DNA of 43,545 nt from a virus. Both the position numbers and the translations under genes were made by a program. The notes beneath the pieces are model-generated. The model was given only the letters and a program-made list of their open reading frames with translations, did not search any database and was not told the origin of the DNA. The stretch spans positions 1 to 43,545 of IMG/VR virus record IMGVR_UViG_3300021961_000189; one strand, given 5' to 3'. This document shows positions 1 through 41,604 of the stretch, one piece after another. Position 1 is the first letter of the stretch. Each line of letters starts with the position of its first letter.

Positions 1-1170
1 GTCTCTTTGTTCTGAGACTCGGATGATTTGTTGTCCTGGGTCATACGTAGATACTCGGAAATTCTGCAGTCTTGCGCCAGGATATACTTTTACAATCTGG
101 TCTTGAACTTCTTGTCTTGTGGGAAGTTTGACCTGAGGGAAAAATAATCTAAGTTCGTAAAGTTTGCCTCTCCAATTTACCAGAGTAATTATAATATTAC
201 CAGTTTTTGCTGGAAGTCTTACTGCCTCTTCCAATTCAATTTCTTCTTTTTTTACGCAGTTTGGATATTTTTTTCCAAACATTGTTTTCATACCTTTTTT
301 CTCATAACCAGACCAACACTTTTCACCCAACATGTCGCTACCAATTCCTTTACTGGGTTGAAGTGGTTCTGGTTTGATTATGTCAATAAATTCAGCAAAA
401 GTTTTTCCAGAAGAATCTTCGACACTTATAGATTCATTTTTTGATTTGCTTCCCCAATTCTTAGCACCAACTTTACGGCATTTGACTAGTGCTCCTGACG
501 CATACGCACTTGGCCAAACTTTGTAACGTGATTTTACTTTATGGTAGCAAGCATCCTTTTCTCCTGCCGCTTCATTTGTCACATAATCGGCAGCAGTATC
601 TATGTAATCTGCTGCTTTAGTGATTTTAGATTGAACCCATGCTTCAAGGTTTCCTTCACCCTTTTTGCCCATTTTCTTTTCAAGTCTTTTGGCAGCATTT
701 TTAATCGTTTTTATTTCAGAACGAGCCATAGAATATTCATGATCTTTCTTTGTTTCTTCAGTTGCCACGTTCTTTGCTTTTCCTCTACGGTCTGGGTTTG
801 GATCTTGACGATTTTTACGACGAAATGCTCTTTCTTCTTCGTCTGAAGAAAGTTCTCTTTTCATTTTGCTGGAACCACACTTTGGTTTGGTTGTTTGTCC
901 AGGTTGTTTGGCACAGGGTTTTCCTGCATATTTGCCGCCCAGTTGAACCCAACCAGGGGTGCCATCAGAAGCACGACTCTTGCTAAACCAGTCACGCAGA
1001 GAAGAATCACCACTCTTGTTCGCTTCATCAATAATACCCGATTCTTTAGCAGCAGTTTCTTGCTCCTTTTCAGAAGCATCATTCACAGAATACTTATCCC
1101 ACATTTTGGGCCCGTATCCACATTCTTCTCTCGTTTCTTTCTTTTTGCAAAGACGGCAATATTTTTTCAT
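1..1170 (-). CDS. Mosaic Cys-rich/basic-module cyanophage protein, 3' end cut by window edge
   Basis: An open frame of 390 codons starts at 1170 and runs off the left edge without a stop. The N-terminus carries cysteines at residues 5, 8 and 17 (MKKYCRLCKKKE). It is followed by a DWFSKSRASDGTPGWVQLGG segment, a lysine-rich stretch, an AWVQSKITKAADYIDTAADY helix, a CYHKVKSRYKVWPSAYASG module and a CWSGYEKKGMKTMFGKKYP module, then a longer globular part. These short modules recur in different combinations in proteins of marine T4-like phages and some giant viruses, according to my memory of those families; their function is unknown to me. The start overlaps the stop of the preceding 51-aa gene (ATGA), implying translational coupling. 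Possible roles are a virion-associated or nucleic-acid-binding protein, but nothing here proves either. I am sure that it is coding, not of what it does. Confidence 0.85.
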   Translation of the reverse strand, partial: MKKYCRLCKKKETREECGYGPKMWDKYSVNDASEKEQETAAKESGIIDEANKSGDSSLRDWFSKSRASDGTPGWVQLGGKYAGKPCAKQPGQTTKPKCGSSKMKRELSSDEEERAFRRKNRQDPNPDRRGKAKNVATEETKKDHEYSMARSEIKTIKNAAKRLEKKMGKKGEGNLEAWVQSKITKAADYIDTAADYVTNEAAGEKDACYHKVKSRYKVWPSAYASGALVKCRKVGAKNWGSKSKNESISVEDSSGKTFAEFIDIIKPEPLQPSKGIGSDMLGEKCWSGYEKKGMKTMFGKKYPNCVKKEEIELEEAVRLPAKTGNIIITLVNWRGKLYELRLFFPQVKLPTRQEVQDQIVKVYPGARLQNFRVSTYDPGQQIIRVSEQRD

Positions 1171-1322
1171 GAAACTGGTTTAGATTTTGTTGCCTCACCT
1201 CTTGCTCTCTTTCTCCTCGCCGCACAATGAGCACGTTGAGAGAATCCCTTGGGATTGGAGCAATCAATACTCTTTTTATATTTATTAGACCACTCTTCTT
1301 GAAATTGTTTGAATGTCTTCAT
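1167..1322 (-). CDS. 51-aa basic Cys-module protein
   Basis: A 51-residue frame (MKTFKQFQEEWSNKYKKSID...) starts at 1322 inside the stop of the oxygenase gene (TAATG) and ends in a TGA that overlaps the ATG of the next gene (ATGA). The central part reads DCSNPKGFSQRAHCAARRK, a short two-cysteine basic module that I recognise as recurrent in cyanophage proteins, often attached to larger proteins. The C-terminus is rich in Arg and Lys. Overlaps at both ends place it as the fourth member of a five-gene coupled cassette. Function is unknown. The tight overlaps and the module match make a real gene likely despite the small size. Confidence 0.72.
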   Translation of the reverse strand: MKTFKQFQEEWSNKYKKSIDCSNPKGFSQRAHCAARRKRARGEATKSKPVS

Positions 1323-1915
1323 TATTCTGTATCAAAAAAGAACATGTGGAATAATCTAGAGTCGTATTTATCATACCCAAAGTATTTAGATGCTGTATGA
1401 GGACAGCGGCCGTCCCAAATAACAAGACGATTGTATACATTAGCAATAACATCAATATGCTCCCATGGAGTTGGATCTAAGTGCTTATTAGCCCAAATTA
1501 CATCAGATCCTTCAGTATCTACATGACGTATTCCTGTCTTCTTATGCGCCAATAGAGAAGTGCCACATTCGTAGGGAGCATTTGGTGTCAAATAAACTGT
1601 TGCTGCCCACTTTTGGGAATCAGCATGATATACCAAAGCATCTTCACAAGTGCAGTGTTGAAATCTTCCACACATTCCATGAGTTTCCATCCAGTTGGAA
1701 ATTTTCATTCCCATTATTTTTTCAAATGCTTCTTTTGTTCCCGGAATTTCAAACTGATTTTCAGTTCTTCTGCCACGATGATAGTCACTAAAATTAAATT
1801 CTTGAGTTAAAGCAAACTCACGGATAGCTTTTGGATCACTATAAAAATTGTCAACGACCCAAAGAGTTTGTCTTTTATTGTCATTTACTGATGGACCATT
1901 TATTTGATATCTCAT
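1322..1915 (-). CDS. 2-oxoglutarate/Fe(II)-type oxygenase (DUF6445-like)
   Basis: This 197-aa protein looks like a compact double-stranded beta-helix dioxygenase. The putative iron ligands are His97 and Asp99 (YHADSQKWAATVYLTP) and distal His173 (DGRCPHTASKYFG), with Arg187 in the last strand as a candidate 2-oxoglutarate contact. The N-terminal part (WVVDNFYSDPKAIREFALTQ) and a GRRT element resemble the DUF6445 family. Members of the superfamily hydroxylate or otherwise oxidise peptides, nucleotides or small molecules; the substrate here cannot be read from sequence. The start overlaps the stop of the radical SAM gene by ATGA, and its stop overlaps the next start. Its position beside the tail fibres suggests modification of a virion or surface component, which is inference. 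Confidence 0.75.
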   Translation of the reverse strand: MRYQINGPSVNDNKRQTLWVVDNFYSDPKAIREFALTQEFNFSDYHRGRRTENQFEIPGTKEAFEKIMGMKISNWMETHGMCGRFQHCTCEDALVYHADSQKWAATVYLTPNAPYECGTSLLAHKKTGIRHVDTEGSDVIWANKHLDPTPWEHIDVIANVYNRLVIWDGRCPHTASKYFGYDKYDSRLFHMFFFDTE

Positions 1916-3351
1916 GGTTTTATTGCGTTTTCACAAAATCTACAGAGATTGAAACATGTATTATTTTCTGGCATTATCTCATCATATGATTGCTCAAATA
2001 AATTGCCAAGAATATGTTCAAGACCATAATCCATACAACAAAGAGATACATCTCCGTTTGGGAGCATGACATTGTGATATAACTTTTCCAAGCACCCACA
2101 GGTCATCTCTTGATTGCCGTGGTAAATCGATTTATATTCATCTTTTCTATTCAAAAGTTCTGGTTTCATAATACTCTCACCAAGTAGATTACCTGCTCTA
2201 GACCACATTTGGTATGTTGGAGCTTCTGGAAATACATGACGAACTGATTCATGAACTGTTCCCATACACATCAAAGTGAAATTGTGAATATCTTTGTGAA
2301 CTTCTCCAAATTTTTCAATTACTTCAATGTATCTTTTAGTTATTGGATGCTTTGCTTTTCTTTCCTGATCCGGTAAGTGAAGAACAAATCCGCCATTTGG
2401 ATTGCCAGCATACTTAACATGCTTAATCCTATCAATATCATCTAAACTCATGCCAATACCAGTTGTGAATACTGAAATTGGATGACCTTCCTGATTCGCA
2501 TAAAGAAGCATATCTGTTGCCTTTGGGTTTAACCAAGGTTCTGTAAATCCAGCAAATGTGACTCTTACTTGTGTTGGTAATTTATCAACGCATTTTTTAA
2601 AGTTATCGAGACTTAAGAATCTTTCTCCTTTATAAACTTTTTGAAGAGTTCTTTGTGGACAGAAAACACAATCGACTACACATCCATTTTGAGCATCGAT
2701 GGAAGTTGTAAATTCCATTGTTGGTGCTATGGAATTCTCCCAAGGTTTTCTTGTCTTGTTTTTATGATAAACCTCATGAAGATTTACATTTTTGCTATTC
2801 AATTTTTTTAAGTTTTGAATAACTGATTGTTTGTGAATTGTATCTAATGGATAATTTTCTAAAAGATCTTCAAACATTCTTCTAGATTCATCACACAACC
2901 CTGTCCACCAAGAACTTACGGCTTTTTCATATAATATTCCCCAAAATCCAGGGTAATCTGTCACCATTGGTAATGGAGACGCATCTTTGATGGAAACTTT
3001 TTCTCCAATAGAAGCAATTAAATATGCATCATGATAATTTCCTTCCCTCTCAAGAAATCGACTTAAGAAAAAATATCCCTCTGGCCTATTAGGCATGATT
3101 GCGAGAGCATGTTGGAGAAGACCTCTTACCGTAAAATTCCTACATCCTTGTTTTTCAAAACAAAAAGCAGATCTAAGAAGACATTGATATTGCTTTTCTA
3201 AATCATCGACTCTTTCAGCACATCTCAGATAATAAGAAATTGCTGAGGCCGTTTGGCCAATATTATCATAATAAAGAGCAAGATTTAAATTATTTTCAGG
3301 ATCTTCTGGATTGAAAATAAAATCATAAAGAAGTTGCGTTAAATCAGACAT
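1912..3351 (-). CDS. TPR-radical SAM-SPASM domain enzyme
   Basis: The 479-aa product has three parts. Residues 1 to about 195 are helical and TPR-like (LALYYDNIGQTASAISYYL, LSRFLEREGNYHDAYLIAS, SSWWTGLCDESRRMFEDLL). The radical SAM core starts at about 210 with the CX3CX2C cluster motif at Cys224, Cys228 and Cys231 (CVVDCVFCPQR), followed by LDNFKKCVDKLP and VTFAGFTEPWLNP, where the GE-type motif would lie. The C-terminus (about 412-479) has many cysteines (TCGCLEK, DVSLCCMDYG, CFNLCRFCEN) around a PNGDVSLCC turn and a LGNLFEQSYDEIM helix, typical of a SPASM extension holding auxiliary iron-sulfur clusters. SPASM enzymes usually modify peptides or carbohydrates. The gene overlaps the propeller gene upstream by 8 nt and the oxygenase gene downstream by 4 nt. 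Confidence 0.85.
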   Translation of the reverse strand: MSDLTQLLYDFIFNPEDPENNLNLALYYDNIGQTASAISYYLRCAERVDDLEKQYQCLLRSAFCFEKQGCRNFTVRGLLQHALAIMPNRPEGYFFLSRFLEREGNYHDAYLIASIGEKVSIKDASPLPMVTDYPGFWGILYEKAVSSWWTGLCDESRRMFEDLLENYPLDTIHKQSVIQNLKKLNSKNVNLHEVYHKNKTRKPWENSIAPTMEFTTSIDAQNGCVVDCVFCPQRTLQKVYKGERFLSLDNFKKCVDKLPTQVRVTFAGFTEPWLNPKATDMLLYANQEGHPISVFTTGIGMSLDDIDRIKHVKYAGNPNGGFVLHLPDQERKAKHPITKRYIEVIEKFGEVHKDIHNFTLMCMGTVHESVRHVFPEAPTYQMWSRAGNLLGESIMKPELLNRKDEYKSIYHGNQEMTCGCLEKLYHNVMLPNGDVSLCCMDYGLEHILGNLFEQSYDEIMPENNTCFNLCRFCENAIKP

Positions 3352-4321
3352 CTAGAATCTCCTCAATAATTGACTGTGGGAACTTTAGTAAATATGCTGC
3401 GTTGTCTTGAAAACCAAAAGATAAAACAAAATCATCTCCATCTTCAATTATACCAATAGCAAATTCAACATGGCCACTCATAATGGAAAAATCACTGGTC
3501 CATTTAATTAGGTTCCAATTTTTATCCCATAAGATTACCCTGTGTCTATAAATGGCATCTTTTCTTTCTACTTCGCTTTTAAACAAATCAACTTCGTGAG
3601 TAATAGCAAGGTAGTAGTTTTTCCATGGAATAACTTGAGTCCCTCCACGCAAATCTCTTGGAATGTCTTGCCTTCTTCCTTGAAAAACAAATTCAGAACT
3701 ATTATCTTCCAAATTTACCTTTACAATTTCAGTTGGATTCCCCCATTTCACAAAATGATATGGTTTATCCAAAATTGGCATCCAGTTTTTCTCACAATAT
3801 GCCTCTCTTGGTGGTTCAATTCTGTTTCTAGATATTTCCACAACTTTATCAGCATGAACCTCAATTTCACATAACTCCATTCTCCCCGTTCCTACTTTGT
3901 CCAAATCCCTACGGACTCCACATGTCCATAGTTTTCCTTCCCATCTAAAAATTCTTGCATCCTCAAGACCAACAAAGTCCCATAATTCCTTTTCTGGAAA
4001 CTTTGATGTATCTATTTTATTATAACGAATTATTCTGTAATCATCATCAAACTCTAGATAGTGATTCCAAGTTCTTAAATGGATATCATTTTCTGGGTGG
4101 ACATATGTTAGAGGTCCATATTGATGTTGAAATAATTTCTCTTCCGAATGGTAAAAAGTATAATTAACTGCTCTTAATATAGCTACTTTTTTATTCCCAT
4201 CTTTATAGATGGATGGATTCATCAGTCCAAGACCATTATTCTCCTCTGCCGGAATAATGAGTGGGTATATTTTTCCACCTCTCTCTAATGCCAACTTAGC
4301 AAGAGAATTTGTAAAATCCAT
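3344..4321 (-). CDS. Five-bladed beta-propeller, glycosidase-like protein
   Basis: The 325-aa protein has the repeated beta-blade pattern of the GH43/GH130-like five-bladed propeller fold: LMNPSIYKDGNKKVAILRA, DFVGLEDARIFRWEGKLWTC, EKNWMPILDKPYHFVKWGNP, LRGGTQVIPWKNYYLAITHE and EFAIGIIEDGDDFVLSFGFQ. The GLEDARIF motif corresponds to the GLEDPRI-type element of predicted glycosidases and mannoside phosphorylases. I cannot confirm catalytic acids, so it may bind or process a glycan or be a non-catalytic relative. It opens a coupled gene cassette, and its stop lies within the start of the radical SAM gene. Such proteins often neighbour glycosyltransferases, which would fit a surface-glycan role. 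Confidence 0.65.
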   Translation of the reverse strand: MDFTNSLAKLALERGGKIYPLIIPAEENNGLGLMNPSIYKDGNKKVAILRAVNYTFYHSEEKLFQHQYGPLTYVHPENDIHLRTWNHYLEFDDDYRIIRYNKIDTSKFPEKELWDFVGLEDARIFRWEGKLWTCGVRRDLDKVGTGRMELCEIEVHADKVVEISRNRIEPPREAYCEKNWMPILDKPYHFVKWGNPTEIVKVNLEDNSSEFVFQGRRQDIPRDLRGGTQVIPWKNYYLAITHEVDLFKSEVERKDAIYRHRVILWDKNWNLIKWTSDFSIMSGHVEFAIGIIEDGDDFVLSFGFQDNAAYLLKFPQSIIEEILDV

Positions 4322-4340: not shown

Positions 4341-4541
4341 TTATGATAAGATAAAGTTTACTGCGCTAAAAACTTTGGTTAATCCAGAACCATCGCCCTT
4401 AAAAGATGTTGCTGAAACAATGCCAACTACATCTAAAGTTGATGTGGGAATAGTAGATCCAATGCCAACTCTATCGTTGGTAATATCGACGAATATATTA
4501 TCATCGGATACTAAATCCGCAGTTCTCCTAGTTTTCCCCAT
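4341..4541 (-). CDS. 66-aa mini fibre-like protein
   Basis: The 66-residue protein contains a short version of the fibre motif common in marine phages: NDRVGIGSTIPTSTLDVVGIVSATSFKGDGSGLTKV. Its last residues, FSAVNFILS, closely match the C-terminus of the adjacent 1224-aa fibre (FSAINFVLG). It has its own late-promoter motif 19 nt upstream. The protein is too short to be a complete fibre. It could be a small tip or adaptor protein, or a residual cassette from fibre rearrangement. The regular start, the promoter and the intact frame favour an expressed gene. Confidence 0.7.
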   Translation of the reverse strand: MGKTRRTADLVSDDNIFVDITNDRVGIGSTIPTSTLDVVGIVSATSFKGDGSGLTKVFSAVNFILS

Positions 4542-4560: not shown

Positions 4561-4568
4561 CTATTTAG
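4561..4568 (-). promoter_or_regulatory. T4-type late promoter (CTAAATAG)
   Basis: CTAAATAG on the minus strand lies 19 nt upstream of the 66-aa gene start, between that start and the stop of the 1224-aa fibre gene. It matches the TAAATA core of T4-like late promoters and sits at the spacing seen for the other late promoters in this window. Confidence 0.6.
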
Positions 4569-4569
4569 A

Positions 4570-7500
4570 CTATCCAAGAACAAAATTAATTGCGCTGAAT
4601 CCTGCTGTGGAACCTTGAATACCTTGAGCACCAGTAATTCCTTGAATACCTTGTGTTCCTGCTCCGGTTACACCTTGAGTACCTTGTGGGCCAGCAGATT
4701 CAAACGCTACAATATCAACAACGTCTCCATAAGTAGCAGCAGTTCCGAGAACAATACTTGTGCCATTAGATGCGGTAATGTCATTGTCACTTAATCGAAC
4801 ACCATTTAAGAATACATCAACATTTCCAACCGAATAAGTGGCACTGAATGTTGTTTGACTTGCTGTTGTTACACTGTAACTAGTTGTTGTCTTACTGTAA
4901 TTTGATCCTTGAACGCCTTGTGCCCCTTGTGTACCAGTAGTACCCTGAGGACCAGCAGAAACATATGTAGCAATCGTTAAAGTGTCACCTACCGAAGCAC
5001 CTGATGTCAGAACAATACTAGTACCGTTTGTAGCAGTAAAGTCGTCTGGATCTAAGTGCGATCCATTTAGATAAACATCAATATTTGATGGGGTATATGA
5101 AAGTGTATTTGCGTTATCATCCGAACCACTAAATGTAGTTTGGTCTGCCGTTGCTGTATAAGTGAATGATGATCTAGTGTGACTAAATCCTTGAATACCT
5201 TGAATACCTTGAGTGCCAGTTATTCCTTGGATACCTTGGATTCCCTGAATACCTTGGATTCCTTGAGGGCCCTGAACGCCTTGAACACCCTGAATGCCTT
5301 GAATACCTTGAACACCTTGGGTTCCTTGAGGTCCAGCAGATTCAAAGGCAACTACATCGATAATGTCACCATAAGTTGCTCCCGTCGCTAATACAATACT
5401 TGTACCGTCAGTTGCCGTATAGTCAGTTGGACTTAATCTTACACCATTCAAGAATACATCAATTTGACCAACTGAATAATTTACACTAAATGTTGTTTGA
5501 CTACTAGTACTAACAGTAAAGGAATTTTCGGACTTGGCAAAACTTGATCCTTGAATACCTTGAATACCTTGGATTCCTTGAATTCCTTGAGTACCATCGA
5601 CTCCTTGAGTACCCGTGATTCCTTGAATTCCTTGTGTTCCTTGAATTCCTTGAATACCTTGAGTACCTTGAGGTCCAGCAGATTCAAAAGCAACAATCGT
5701 TAAGGTATCCCCTACAGAAGCCCCAGATACTAATACTACGCTAGTTCCATTTGTAGCAGTAAAGTCATCCGGATCTAAGTGTGAACCATTAAGGAATACG
5801 TCAAGATTTCCTATAGAGTATGCTAATGTATTTGTATTGTCATCAGCACCACTAAATGTAGTTTGACTTGCGGTAGCAGTATAAGTGAATGATGATCTAG
5901 AAAAACTAAAACCTTGAATACCTTGAGTACCTTGAGTACCAGTGATTCCTTGAATTCCCTGAGCACCATCTGTTCCTTGGATTCCCGTAGTACCCTGGGT
6001 TCCGGTAATACCTTGAGTACCAGTAGTTCCTTGAGGACCAGCAGATTCGAAGGCAACTATATCAATAACATCATTTAATGAAGCACCAACATCTAATACT
6101 ACTGAAGTTCCGTTTGATGCAGTATATTCATCTGGGCTCAACCTAACGCCATTCAAGAATACATCAATTTGACCAACTGTGTAAATTACATTAAATGTAG
6201 TCTGTGATGCTGTAGCAGTAAAACTACTTTCTGTTTTAGTGAAACTAAATCCTTGAATACCTTGAGTACCAGTTGTGCCTTGAGGTCCTATTATTCCTTG
6301 AACGCCTTGAGTACCATCTGTTCCTTGAGTACCATCTGTTCCTTGAATTCCCTGTGTTCCTTGAACACCTTGGATTCCTTGAGTACCTTGAGTACCATCT
6401 GTTCCTTGAGTACCAGTAATTCCCTGAGTTCCCGTTATTCCCTGAATTCCTTGGGCCCCATCGGTTCCTTGAGTTCCCTGAGTTCCAGTTGTTCCTTGAG
6501 TTCCAGTATCTCCCTTATCTCCAGTTCTAGCAAAAGTAACTATTACATCTTCAGAATTTGAAAATGAAGTAACACCAGAAAGATAAGTACATGGTATTCT
6601 AAAATATCCAGTTTCTTCTACACTGGACCCATCAATTGTAAAAATAGCAAAATCATCAGCATTTAATCTATTTGAAACTCTAAAGTGTCCCTTTATTGTC
6701 GATGTTGAATCATCAATAACTCTAAGAAAACTTTGAATATCTGTTGAATTATCGTCAACATCATCAATATAAACTTCAGTGACAGTGCTGAGACCTACAT
6801 AATTGAATTTTAAGGTTCCAGTACCTGGATCGGTGTTTGTTGTATCTGTAGAAAATGTGTAATCAAAGGTAGCTCCACCAAAATTACCATCAGTTCCAGT
6901 TATTCCCTGAATACCTTGTACGCCAGTAATTCCCTGAATTCCTTGGGTTCCTTGGACACCTTGAATTCCTTGGACACCTTGAATGCCTTGAACTCCTTGA
7001 GTTCCTTGAGTTCCATCAGTGCCCTGTGTTCCAGTGATACCCTGAATTCCTTGGACACCTTGGGTTCCTTGAACTCCTTGAGTTCCTTGAGTTCCATCGG
7101 TTCCTTGAGTACCTGTGAGTCCTTGAATACCCTGAGTTCCTTGAACTCCTTGAATACCTTGAGTACCTTGAGGTCCAGCAGATTCAAAAGCAACAATAGT
7201 TAAAGTATCATCAAGTGTAGCTCCAGATGATAAAACTACAGATGATCCATCTGTTGCGGTAAAATCACTAGGATCCAAATGGGATCCATTAAGGAATACG
7301 TCAAGATTTCCTACAGAGTATGCTAATGTATTTGTATTGTCATCAGCACCACTAAATGAGGTTTGACCAGAGGTTGCTGTGTAAGTGAAAGATGATCTTG
7401 TGTAACTAAATCCTTGAATACCTTGAGTACCTTGAGTACCAGTGATTCCTTGAATTCCCTGTGTTCCTTGAACACCTTGGATTCCTTGAGTACCTTGAGT

Positions 7501-8244
7501 ACCATCTGTTCCTTGAGTACCAGTGATTCCTTGAGCACCTGTAATTCCTTGAATACCTTGAGGACCAGCGGATTCAAAGGCAACTACATCAATAATATCC
7601 CCATAAGTAGCGGCAGTCCCCAGTACTATGCTGGTTCCATTTGATGCTGTGTAATCTGTTGGACTTAATCTGACACCATTCAAGAAGACATCAATTTGAC
7701 CAACAGTATAATTTACTGAAAATGTTGTTTGACTAGATGAAGTTACTGTAAAACTTGTCTCAGTTTTTGTAAAACTAAATCCTTGGACGCCTTGAATTCC
7801 CTGAGCACCAGTAGTTCCCTGTGTACCGGTTGTTCCTTGAAGTGGTTCTGCCCAAACCACTCCACTTCCAGTTGAAGTAAGTACGGAGGAAGCAGAACCA
7901 ACTCTTCCATAAACATCAGTAATAGTACTATCAAAATCTACATTGCCATTAAATGTAGTGATGCCTGTAACTATTACATTGCCAGATACATGAAGTCTTT
8001 CTGTTGGGTTAGTCAGACCAAGACCAACATTGCCGGCAGTAAAATATGCGTTATATGAATCTGTTCCAGTTCCAACCCTAAATGGGTTAAGTACTATGAC
8101 TGTTGTGCCAATACCTACATTTTTAGATGCGTAGAGATATCCGTCATAAGTATTAAGAGCTACCTCACCTAATGGCAACTGATCTGCGGTCGGAATCTTG
8201 CCAGATACAGCCGACCTTTTTAGTTTAATTATTGGATCTGCCAT
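4570..8244 (-). CDS. Collagen-like tail fibre with alternating beta-modules
   Basis: The 1224-aa protein starts with a domain of about 135 residues ([20 protein letters not shown]..., then [18 protein letters not shown]). It resembles the virion-attaching N-terminus of phage fibres and Mtd-like proteins, and is related to the start of the 620-aa protein upstream. From about residue 136 to near the end, Gly-X-Y collagen-like stretches (GTQGIQG, GVQGIQG, GTDGTQG) alternate with beta-modules of about 70-80 residues. Type A contains [15 protein letters not shown]; type B contains [15 protein letters not shown]. The order is A-B-unique-A-B-A-B-A, the unique module including [16 protein letters not shown]. 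It ends FSAINFVLG, like its 66-aa neighbour. Most likely a trimeric host-recognition fibre. The internal DNA repeats would make it prone to recombination. Confidence 0.88.
4596..7839 (-). repeat. In-gene repeat array encoding collagen-like spacers
   Basis: Multiple clusters of a 9-nt periodic sequence (plus-strand variants of CCTTGAATA / CCTTGAGTA / CCTTGGATT) encode Gly-X-Y triplets such as GTQ, GIQ, GVQ and GTD. The clusters separate longer repeats of about 220-250 nt that encode the beta-modules. The periodicity also produces spurious open frames on both strands. The array is coding, not CRISPR-like: there are no unique spacers between constant repeats. Confidence 0.85.
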
Positions 8245-8255
8245 TTTTTAGGTGT

Positions 8256-8263
8256 CTATTTAG
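8256..8263 (-). promoter_or_regulatory. T4-type late promoter (CTAAATAG) for the tail fibre
   Basis: CTAAATAG on the minus strand, 11 nt upstream of the 1224-aa fibre ATG. It is the shortest promoter-start distance among the late motifs here. A CATAAATA motif (8295-8302), overlapping the stop of the 66-aa coiled-coil gene, could act as a second late promoter for the same fibre. Confidence 0.6.
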
Positions 8264-15164: not shown

Positions 15165-15172
15165 ATATTTAG
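15165..15172 (-). promoter_or_regulatory. T4-type late promoter (CTAAATAT) for gp13-gp14
   Basis: CTAAATAT on the minus strand, 22 nt upstream of gp13 and overlapping the end of the 75-aa gene. A purine-rich AGGGGGAAA element between it and the start could serve as ribosome binding site. Confidence 0.6.
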
Positions 15173-40681: not shown

Positions 40682-40831
40682 TTAGATTTCCTCCAGTTCA
40701 ATAAGTTTGGGATTAATATCATCTCCCGAGAAAAATGCTTCCGAGAGTTCTTGAAGGACCTCAGTACATTCTTCATGTGTGAGGTCCGAGTAAATTTTAC
40801 GCCCCTGATAAAGAACGTTAAATTTTTTCAT
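40682..40831 (-). CDS. 49-aa small conserved cyanophage protein
   Basis: MKKFNVLYQGRKIYSDLTHE continues with ECTEVLQELSEAFFSGDDIN and ends PKLIELEEI: a beta-hairpin start, a central helix and an acidic end. The ATG overlaps the TGA of the glycosyltransferase gene (ATGA), and the next gene starts at the base after its stop, so it is translationally coupled on both sides. Function unknown. Confidence 0.75.
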   Translation of the reverse strand: MKKFNVLYQGRKIYSDLTHEECTEVLQELSEAFFSGDDINPKLIELEEI

Positions 40832-41604
40832 CAGATTACGCGAGTCTTTTCGTGGCCAACGCGGATCCGGGGGTCACACCAGATCTTATAACCAGCATCA
40901 ATGGCATCAAGACAGAACGAAACGTCTTCCCCACACATATCCTGAACAGAACCAGATTCAAAGACTTGCATCTTCGGAGCAAACCAGGGATACTTCATCT
41001 TAGGATCTTCAAAGACTCCGTGCTTAATCATGACCCACCCAAAACCAGTGTAGTCAACCGTGAAGGGCTTACGGCGCTTTTGAATGGATTCAACAGTCTC
41101 ATGATTCATGACACCACCATTCTTGCGGAAATCATCTTCCTCCAACCAGTGTGCGACAGAAGTTGTGTGACCATCTTCAGTAGCATACCAACCAGCAGTA
41201 ATCTCACGCTCTGTACCATCCTCACTCAGAGAAAGATCACAAAGCTGCCAGAACTTGTTCGTGTCAAAGACAATATCCGAGTCAATCCACAGTTGATAAT
41301 CATACTTCAGTTTACCATCCCAGGGAATCTGATCAGGTCCACGAAGTACATTCGCACCAAGTACTTTACAACGTGCAAAGTTGACCATGGATGAATAGTC
41401 TTGACTAATCTGAATGGCCATACCATTCTGTACCATGTCAAAACAAAGTTGTACAAAGTTCTTCAAAAAGATATATGACACACCTCTTCCTGGAAGACAA
41501 AAGACAATCGTCTTTCCCCTCATCCGTTCTTTGATAGCATCAATATCGAACTCCTCTTCTTTCTTCACAGGAGCAGTTGCTTTTACAGTAAATCCTTTTG
41601 CCAT
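40831..41604 (-). CDS. GT-A fold glycosyltransferase-like protein
   Basis: A 257-aa protein. After a charged start, VFCLPGRGVSYIFLKNFVQL begins a Rossmann-like GT-A core. The DxD-type metal motif is LWIDSDIVF with Asp108 and Asp110, preceded by YDYQ. ITAGWYATEDG, YTGFGWVMIKHGVFED and GEDVSFCLDAIDAGYKIW supply the acceptor-side motifs, and the ending CDPRIRVGHEK has the His typical of this group. Probably uses a nucleotide sugar to modify a host or phage surface component; donor and acceptor are unknown. Driven by a near-consensus sigma-70 promoter, it heads a three-gene unit. The identification as glycosyltransferase is good; the target is open. Confidence 0.85.
   Translation of the reverse strand: MAKGFTVKATAPVKKEEEFDIDAIKERMRGKTIVFCLPGRGVSYIFLKNFVQLCFDMVQNGMAIQISQDYSSMVNFARCKVLGANVLRGPDQIPWDGKLKYDYQLWIDSDIVFDTNKFWQLCDLSLSEDGTEREITAGWYATEDGHTTSVAHWLEEDDFRKNGGVMNHETVESIQKRRKPFTVDYTGFGWVMIKHGVFEDPKMKYPWFAPKMQVFESGSVQDMCGEDVSFCLDAIDAGYKIWCDPRIRVGHEKTRVI

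Follow-up and report, generated by a model that had tools for sequence, protein, structure and literature searches.

The window analysed here is a virus record of 43,545 bases whose structural genes match T4-like cyanophage families, and its first bases carry five overlapping genes beside tail fibre genes. The question is whether these genes form one system, as an earlier note on this DNA proposed, and on what molecule such a system would act. All five lie on the minus strand: a propeller gene (4321-3344, 325 aa), a gene with TPR, radical SAM and SPASM domains (3351-1912, 479 aa, TPR at about residues 1-186), a DUF6445 gene for a predicted Fe(II)/2OG oxygenase (1915-1322, 197 aa), a 51-aa Cys-module ORF (1322-1167), and a core cyanomyovirus gene that runs from 1170 to beyond base 1 and is cut by the window end (at least 390 aa). 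The four junctions overlap just as had been described (8 nt; ATGA, 4 nt; TAATG, 1 nt; ATGA, 4 nt), and the coupling is indeed tighter than elsewhere in the window, where all remaining junctions in our gene list are gaps of 0 nt or more.

A 66-aa fibre-like ORF with weak PHROG tail-family matches (4341-4541, minus strand) lies directly upstream of the propeller gene, across a gap of 19 nt, and is likely to be co-transcribed with the cassette. Its C-terminus, FSAVNFILS, is similar to that of the 1224-aa collagen-like fibre (4570-8244), FSAINFVLG, and to judge from these residues the ORF resembles the C-terminal end of a fibre that became detached or was duplicated.

Border and modular composition of the cassette

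The proposal of a single five-gene unit does not hold. The 51-aa and 390-aa genes, both assigned to phrog_727 (E 6e-91 for the latter), represent a core family found where the other three are absent. A DNA search with this stretch matches 287 phage records, most of them over just those two genes, whereas the propeller protein matches 3 phage records only. Since the last two genes are thus core phage genes, we rejected the five-gene unit; they are the neighbours that flank the cassette insertion and mark its border, and in phage S-SM2 a phrog_727-type homologue adjoins gp17. In one related locus (L071), the 51-aa and the 390-aa gene both match one ORF of 699 aa, and in this window the pair (1-1322) could be the two parts of a split gene. 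In two other loci (L082 and L087), the slot beside the core phrog_727-like gene holds a GT2-methyltransferase gene and a DUF6445 gene rather than the propeller cassette.

The three genes at 1322-4321 are a real, mobile module. Single-sequence searches of IMG/VR returned 52 propeller, 5 radical SAM and 52 2OG loci, and 123 non-redundant related loci were compared; these share ancestry, so that the counts below do not represent independent events. The TPR module is found within six genes of the propeller in 112 of the 123 loci, and downstream of it in 98 of the 103 that have at least 4 kb of downstream sequence. Among the same 103 loci, the optional partners are less frequent (radical SAM in 36, 2OG in 48). 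Of the 119 loci in which the propeller gene and its successor share a strand, 92 have the two overlapping, most commonly by 8 nt (29) or 4 nt (21), and the modules are repeatedly fused, as TPR-rSAM (24), TPR-2OG (8) and PROP-rSAM (5), more rarely as PROP-TPR (3), PROP-2OG (1) and TPR-rSAM-2OG (1). These loci show a conserved propeller gene with a TPR module after it, to which exchangeable enzyme modules are added, and the genes are translationally coupled.

Two phages illustrate the arrangement. Synechococcus phage DSL-LC02 carries the propeller, middle and 2OG genes in the same order, inverted between fibre genes, while in S-SCSM2R the middle gene is a TPR part fused to a 2OG domain and the cassette lies beside nrdA/nrdB and other metabolic genes. 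Propeller, radical SAM/SPASM enzyme and dioxygenase travel together in related loci, as expected of a conserved set, although the co-occurrence is graded: propeller and TPR are near-obligate companions, radical SAM and 2OG modules are optional, and the last two genes go independently. The earlier note held that independent occurrence of the genes would refute a joint system; the 51-aa and 390-aa genes do occur in this way, and the 2OG gene partly does.

Predicted enzymes and the glycan connection

The glycosidase-like propeller recognised in the earlier note is borne out by structure prediction. The first gene is the near-invariant core of the cassette; the AF2 model of its product has a pLDDT of 92.4, and its top Foldseek matches in the PDB are almost all GH130/GT108 proteins (best E 3e-10), with moderate TM scores of 0.5-0.6 and identities of 10-17%. 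The window protein has no Pfam match and does not reach the curated cut-off of PF04041, which 12 of 49 propeller homologues match weakly (best E 4e-4); being below Pfam detection by sequence, it is not classed here as a GH130 member. PDB sequence searches with the propeller, radical SAM and 2OG proteins gave nothing useful. Rows from the annotated phage collection were excluded from the input for structure prediction.

Residues E120, D121 and R123 are invariant in the propeller homologues. In hhalign comparisons with GH130 proteins taken from bacterial genomes (relatives of G002), the EDAR motif at 120-123 is placed on the GH130 EDPR motif with Pro replaced by Ala (E 1.2e-5, probability 81), and the N-P and C-terminal D motifs likewise align with their GH130 counterparts. 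D121 falls on the EDPR aspartate, the catalytic acid of the GH130 family. GT108 members are dual transferase-phosphorylases that share the propeller fold (PMC8950772). On the basis of the predicted fold, the propeller is probably a transferase or phosphorylase for beta-mannosides or similar linkages, while it could also be a catalytically dead binding module.

The family is essentially viral, because at least 598 IMG/VR stretches carry it (alignment search) as against 5 of 84,980 prokaryote genomes. All five of these matches are on small or metagenome contigs, and a host origin of the propeller was rejected. At one locus (L115), fibre-like ORFs adjoin the propeller and the surrounding DNA looks like that of a phage.

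The domains claimed for the middle gene are found by Pfam, with PF04055 and PF13186 above cut-off and single TPR matches below or near theirs. The CX3CX2C motif is present in all 43 aligned radical SAM domains, and the C-terminal cysteines are conserved in at least 98%. NCBIfam gives weak matches far below its cut-offs, such as the peptide maturase TIGR04080 and the sugar enzyme DesII. Of the parts of this protein, TPR forms the second core module of the cassette, and radical SAM-SPASM is an exchangeable one.

The dioxygenase call for the third gene is supported by a Pfam DUF6445 match over the cut-off (E 3.6e-8), a 2OG-oxygenase fold and an HxD...H...R pattern. The model (pLDDT 91.3) matches OGFOD1, PHD2, P4H and HygX; in the family D99, H173 and R187 are invariant and H97 is conserved in at least 90%. 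If our reading is right, it assigns a likely role, that of an exchangeable tailoring module, to a Pfam family of unknown function. Two existing labels look wrong with regard to the fold and motif: 'minor coat protein' for the DUF6445 family (phrog_1644), and FkbM methyltransferase for the 197-aa homologue in DSL-LC02 (window 1322-1915; L001:14139-14732). The literature searches found nothing on DUF6445 or S-SCSM2R, and the DSL-LC02 paper does not discuss the cassette genes. In phage Sf-FS3, the neighbours of the DUF6445 gene are glycosyltransferases and sugar-nucleotide genes, and propeller-less loci often have DUF6445 next to a GT2-methyltransferase protein or as part of a GT2-TPR-DUF6445 fusion. 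Three loci (L099, L107 and L109) have DUF6445 genes with neither propeller nor glycan genes nearby; in L099 the upstream gene weakly matches family B DNA polymerase.

The partner proteins in the related loci are recognised by Pfam as FkbM, Methyltransf_24 and other methyltransferases, WavE LPS synthesis proteins, and glycosyltransferases of the GT2, GT7C, GT17, GT25 and group-1 types. One locus has a HAD plus nucleotidyl transferase protein near the cassette, and some relatives encode large fused GT-GT-TPR-MT proteins. From these glycosyltransferase, methyltransferase and nucleotidyl-transferase neighbours, the glycan modification pathway suggested earlier appears likely. Taken together with the GH130/GT108 placement, the alignment of EDAR on EDPR, and the 2OG fold fused to glycosyltransferases, the partner enzymes lead us to conclude that the three genes are probably one version of a modular cassette with which T4-like cyanophages and related viruses tailor glycans. 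Elsewhere in the window, a conserved phrog_1574 protein (40831-41604) weakly matches a phage glycosyltransferase family.

Promoters and the target of modification

We propose that the cassette, inserted in a plastic host-recognition region beside fibre genes, would most likely alter a surface glycan. The propeller would make or phosphorolyse a beta-mannoside-type linkage, the TPR part may gather the enzymes or hold the acceptor, and the radical SAM and 2OG enzymes may oxidise or rearrange the sugar or its carrier, a tailoring role that methyltransferases and classical glycosyltransferases would fill in sister cassettes. We slightly favour the envelope glycan of the infected cell as the target, with adsorption of competing or sister phages blocked as a result, and give this an even chance; the phage's own fibres seem somewhat less probable, and other targets account for the rest.

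The promoters bear on this choice. CTAAATA is the described late motif of the T4-like phage Aeh1 (PMC1524935), and cyanomyoviruses have sigma-70-like motifs before homologues of early T4 genes and NATAAATA before late ones (PMC2984593). Of the 23 window genes, 8 have CTAAATA in the 60 nt that precede them, against 0.28 expected from random placement; its total number is that of chance, and only the placement upstream of genes is significant. It is concentrated before structural genes (e.g. 4562-4568, 8257-8263 and 15166-15172). The genes so preceded include the 66-aa ORF but not the cassette itself, for which the copy at 4562-4568 (minus strand) is the nearest upstream. The window cassette is not itself preceded by a good sigma-70 site and lies behind this late-type promoter with fibre genes; in four close relatives, CTAAATA stands 24-25 nt before the propeller gene. 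In contrast, a sigma-70-like site (at most 2 mismatches) precedes the propeller in 31 of 109 loci, compared with 46 of 922 other genes; after clustering at 75% identity the count is 17 of 59 clusters, where dinucleotide shuffles give 3.3 and the reverse strand gives 6. The DSL-LC02 cassette, for instance, is behind TTGACA-17-TAGAAT. These data imply that an early-type promoter often accompanies the cassette, whereas the window copy and its closest relatives look late. A late-type promoter fits with modification of the virion or fibre, a host-type sigma-70 promoter with host-surface remodelling at an early stage. Judged from such motifs, the promoters of the relatives favour the host surface no less than the fibre.

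In the leading alternative, fibres of the phage itself would be glycosylated and tailored by the cassette, one possible site being the collagen-like G-T-Q repeats in the 1224-aa protein, and the TPR part would bind the fibre. TPR domains often bind protein acceptors. The fibre genes are adjacent, the cassette begins 19 nt behind a fibre-like ORF, and the nearest promoter motif is of the late type here as in the four close relatives. Moreover, the GT-GT-TPR-MT fusions resemble the chlorovirus PBCV-1 protein A111/114R (PMC7826918), and mycobacteriophage glycosyltransferases are reported to glycosylate virions (PMC11256854). Nevertheless, about a quarter of the relatives have their own host-type promoter, the DSL-LC02 cassette is inverted relative to the fibres, and that of S-SCSM2R adjoins metabolic genes instead. 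Fibres with the same repeats also exist in phages without the cassette. We hold the alternative to be possible but less likely than not. A specific form of it, in which a virus-specific, TPR-scaffolded glycosylation with a divergent GH130-like transferase and interchangeable tailoring enzymes would build an unusual oxidised or methylated glycan, varying between phages, on the collagen-like fibres, we consider unlikely.

It is also conceivable that the radical SAM, SPASM and 2OG enzymes modify a peptide, RiPP-like or of the virion, with the propeller as a partner or binder and no glycan involved. SPASM enzymes often mature peptides, radical SAM-SPASM and 2OG enzymes can act on peptides too, and the matches include peptide maturases such as TIGR04080 and, for the 2OG fold, prolyl hydroxylases. 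Yet the NCBIfam matches are far below cut-offs and include DesII, the cassette region of the window shows no recognisable gene for a precursor peptide, and the partner modules of the relatives are glycosyl- and methyltransferases, which makes this reading improbable. That the genes are unrelated morons side by side, their overlaps mere genome compaction, is very improbable: overlapping genes are common in phages and 2OG and radical SAM are individually optional, but the propeller-TPR linkage in 98 of 103 loci, the conserved 8-nt overlap and the repeated fusions argue against it.

Relation to known systems

If the glycan-tailoring reading holds, a combinatorial kit for tailoring sugars sits in the host-range region of hundreds of aquatic phage contigs, with a nearly virus-only family of sugar enzymes at its core. 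Lytic cyanophages may remodel the infected cell's surface or coat their own fibres, and the cassette would then offer a concrete way to tell which. We found no description of the propeller-TPR core and its module swapping in the literature searched, which was mostly without subscription journals.

The nearest enzymes are those of GH130/GT108, such as Listeria Lin0857, Uhgb_MS and Leishmania MPT-2/MPT-4, which have in common with the cassette propeller the fold, N-P, E-D-x-R and the C-terminal D. The cassette propeller differs in its 10-17% identity below Pfam detection, in having EDAR rather than EDPR, and in being essentially viral and coupled to a TPR protein. With regard to location, the host recognition cluster of cyano- and pelagimyophages, described as containing glycosyltransferases and radical SAM cassettes with a proposed role in modifying the host O-chain (PMC7029224), occupies the same region beside fibres and gp13-gp15 and shares the sugar enzymes and radical SAM; the main text of that paper is without the words 'TPR' or 'methyltransferase', and we found no description of the propeller-TPR core or of module swapping there. 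Campylobacter phages CP220 and CPt10 similarly have an exchangeable cluster rich in radical SAM genes, which however goes with a putative glycine amidinotransferase and for which no propeller-TPR core is mentioned (PMC2853527). The fused glycosyltransferase modules of relatives of the cassette have a virus-encoded counterpart in PBCV-1 A111/114R, that of a eukaryotic virus in which a capsid N-glycan target is shown (PMC7826918).

In its mode of life, the cassette may be likened to serotype-converting glycosyltransferase morons, being mobile, sometimes equipped with its own promoter, and predicted to change a surface glycan. Such O-antigen modifying morons of phages are mobile, sometimes have their own promoter and alter the surface glycan. 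In the cassette, the promoter trait is seen in about a quarter of relatives and is absent from the window copy, and no membrane flippase or GtrAB-type set is recognised. Unlike those morons, the cassette consists of multi-enzyme tailoring modules in lytic T4-like phages.
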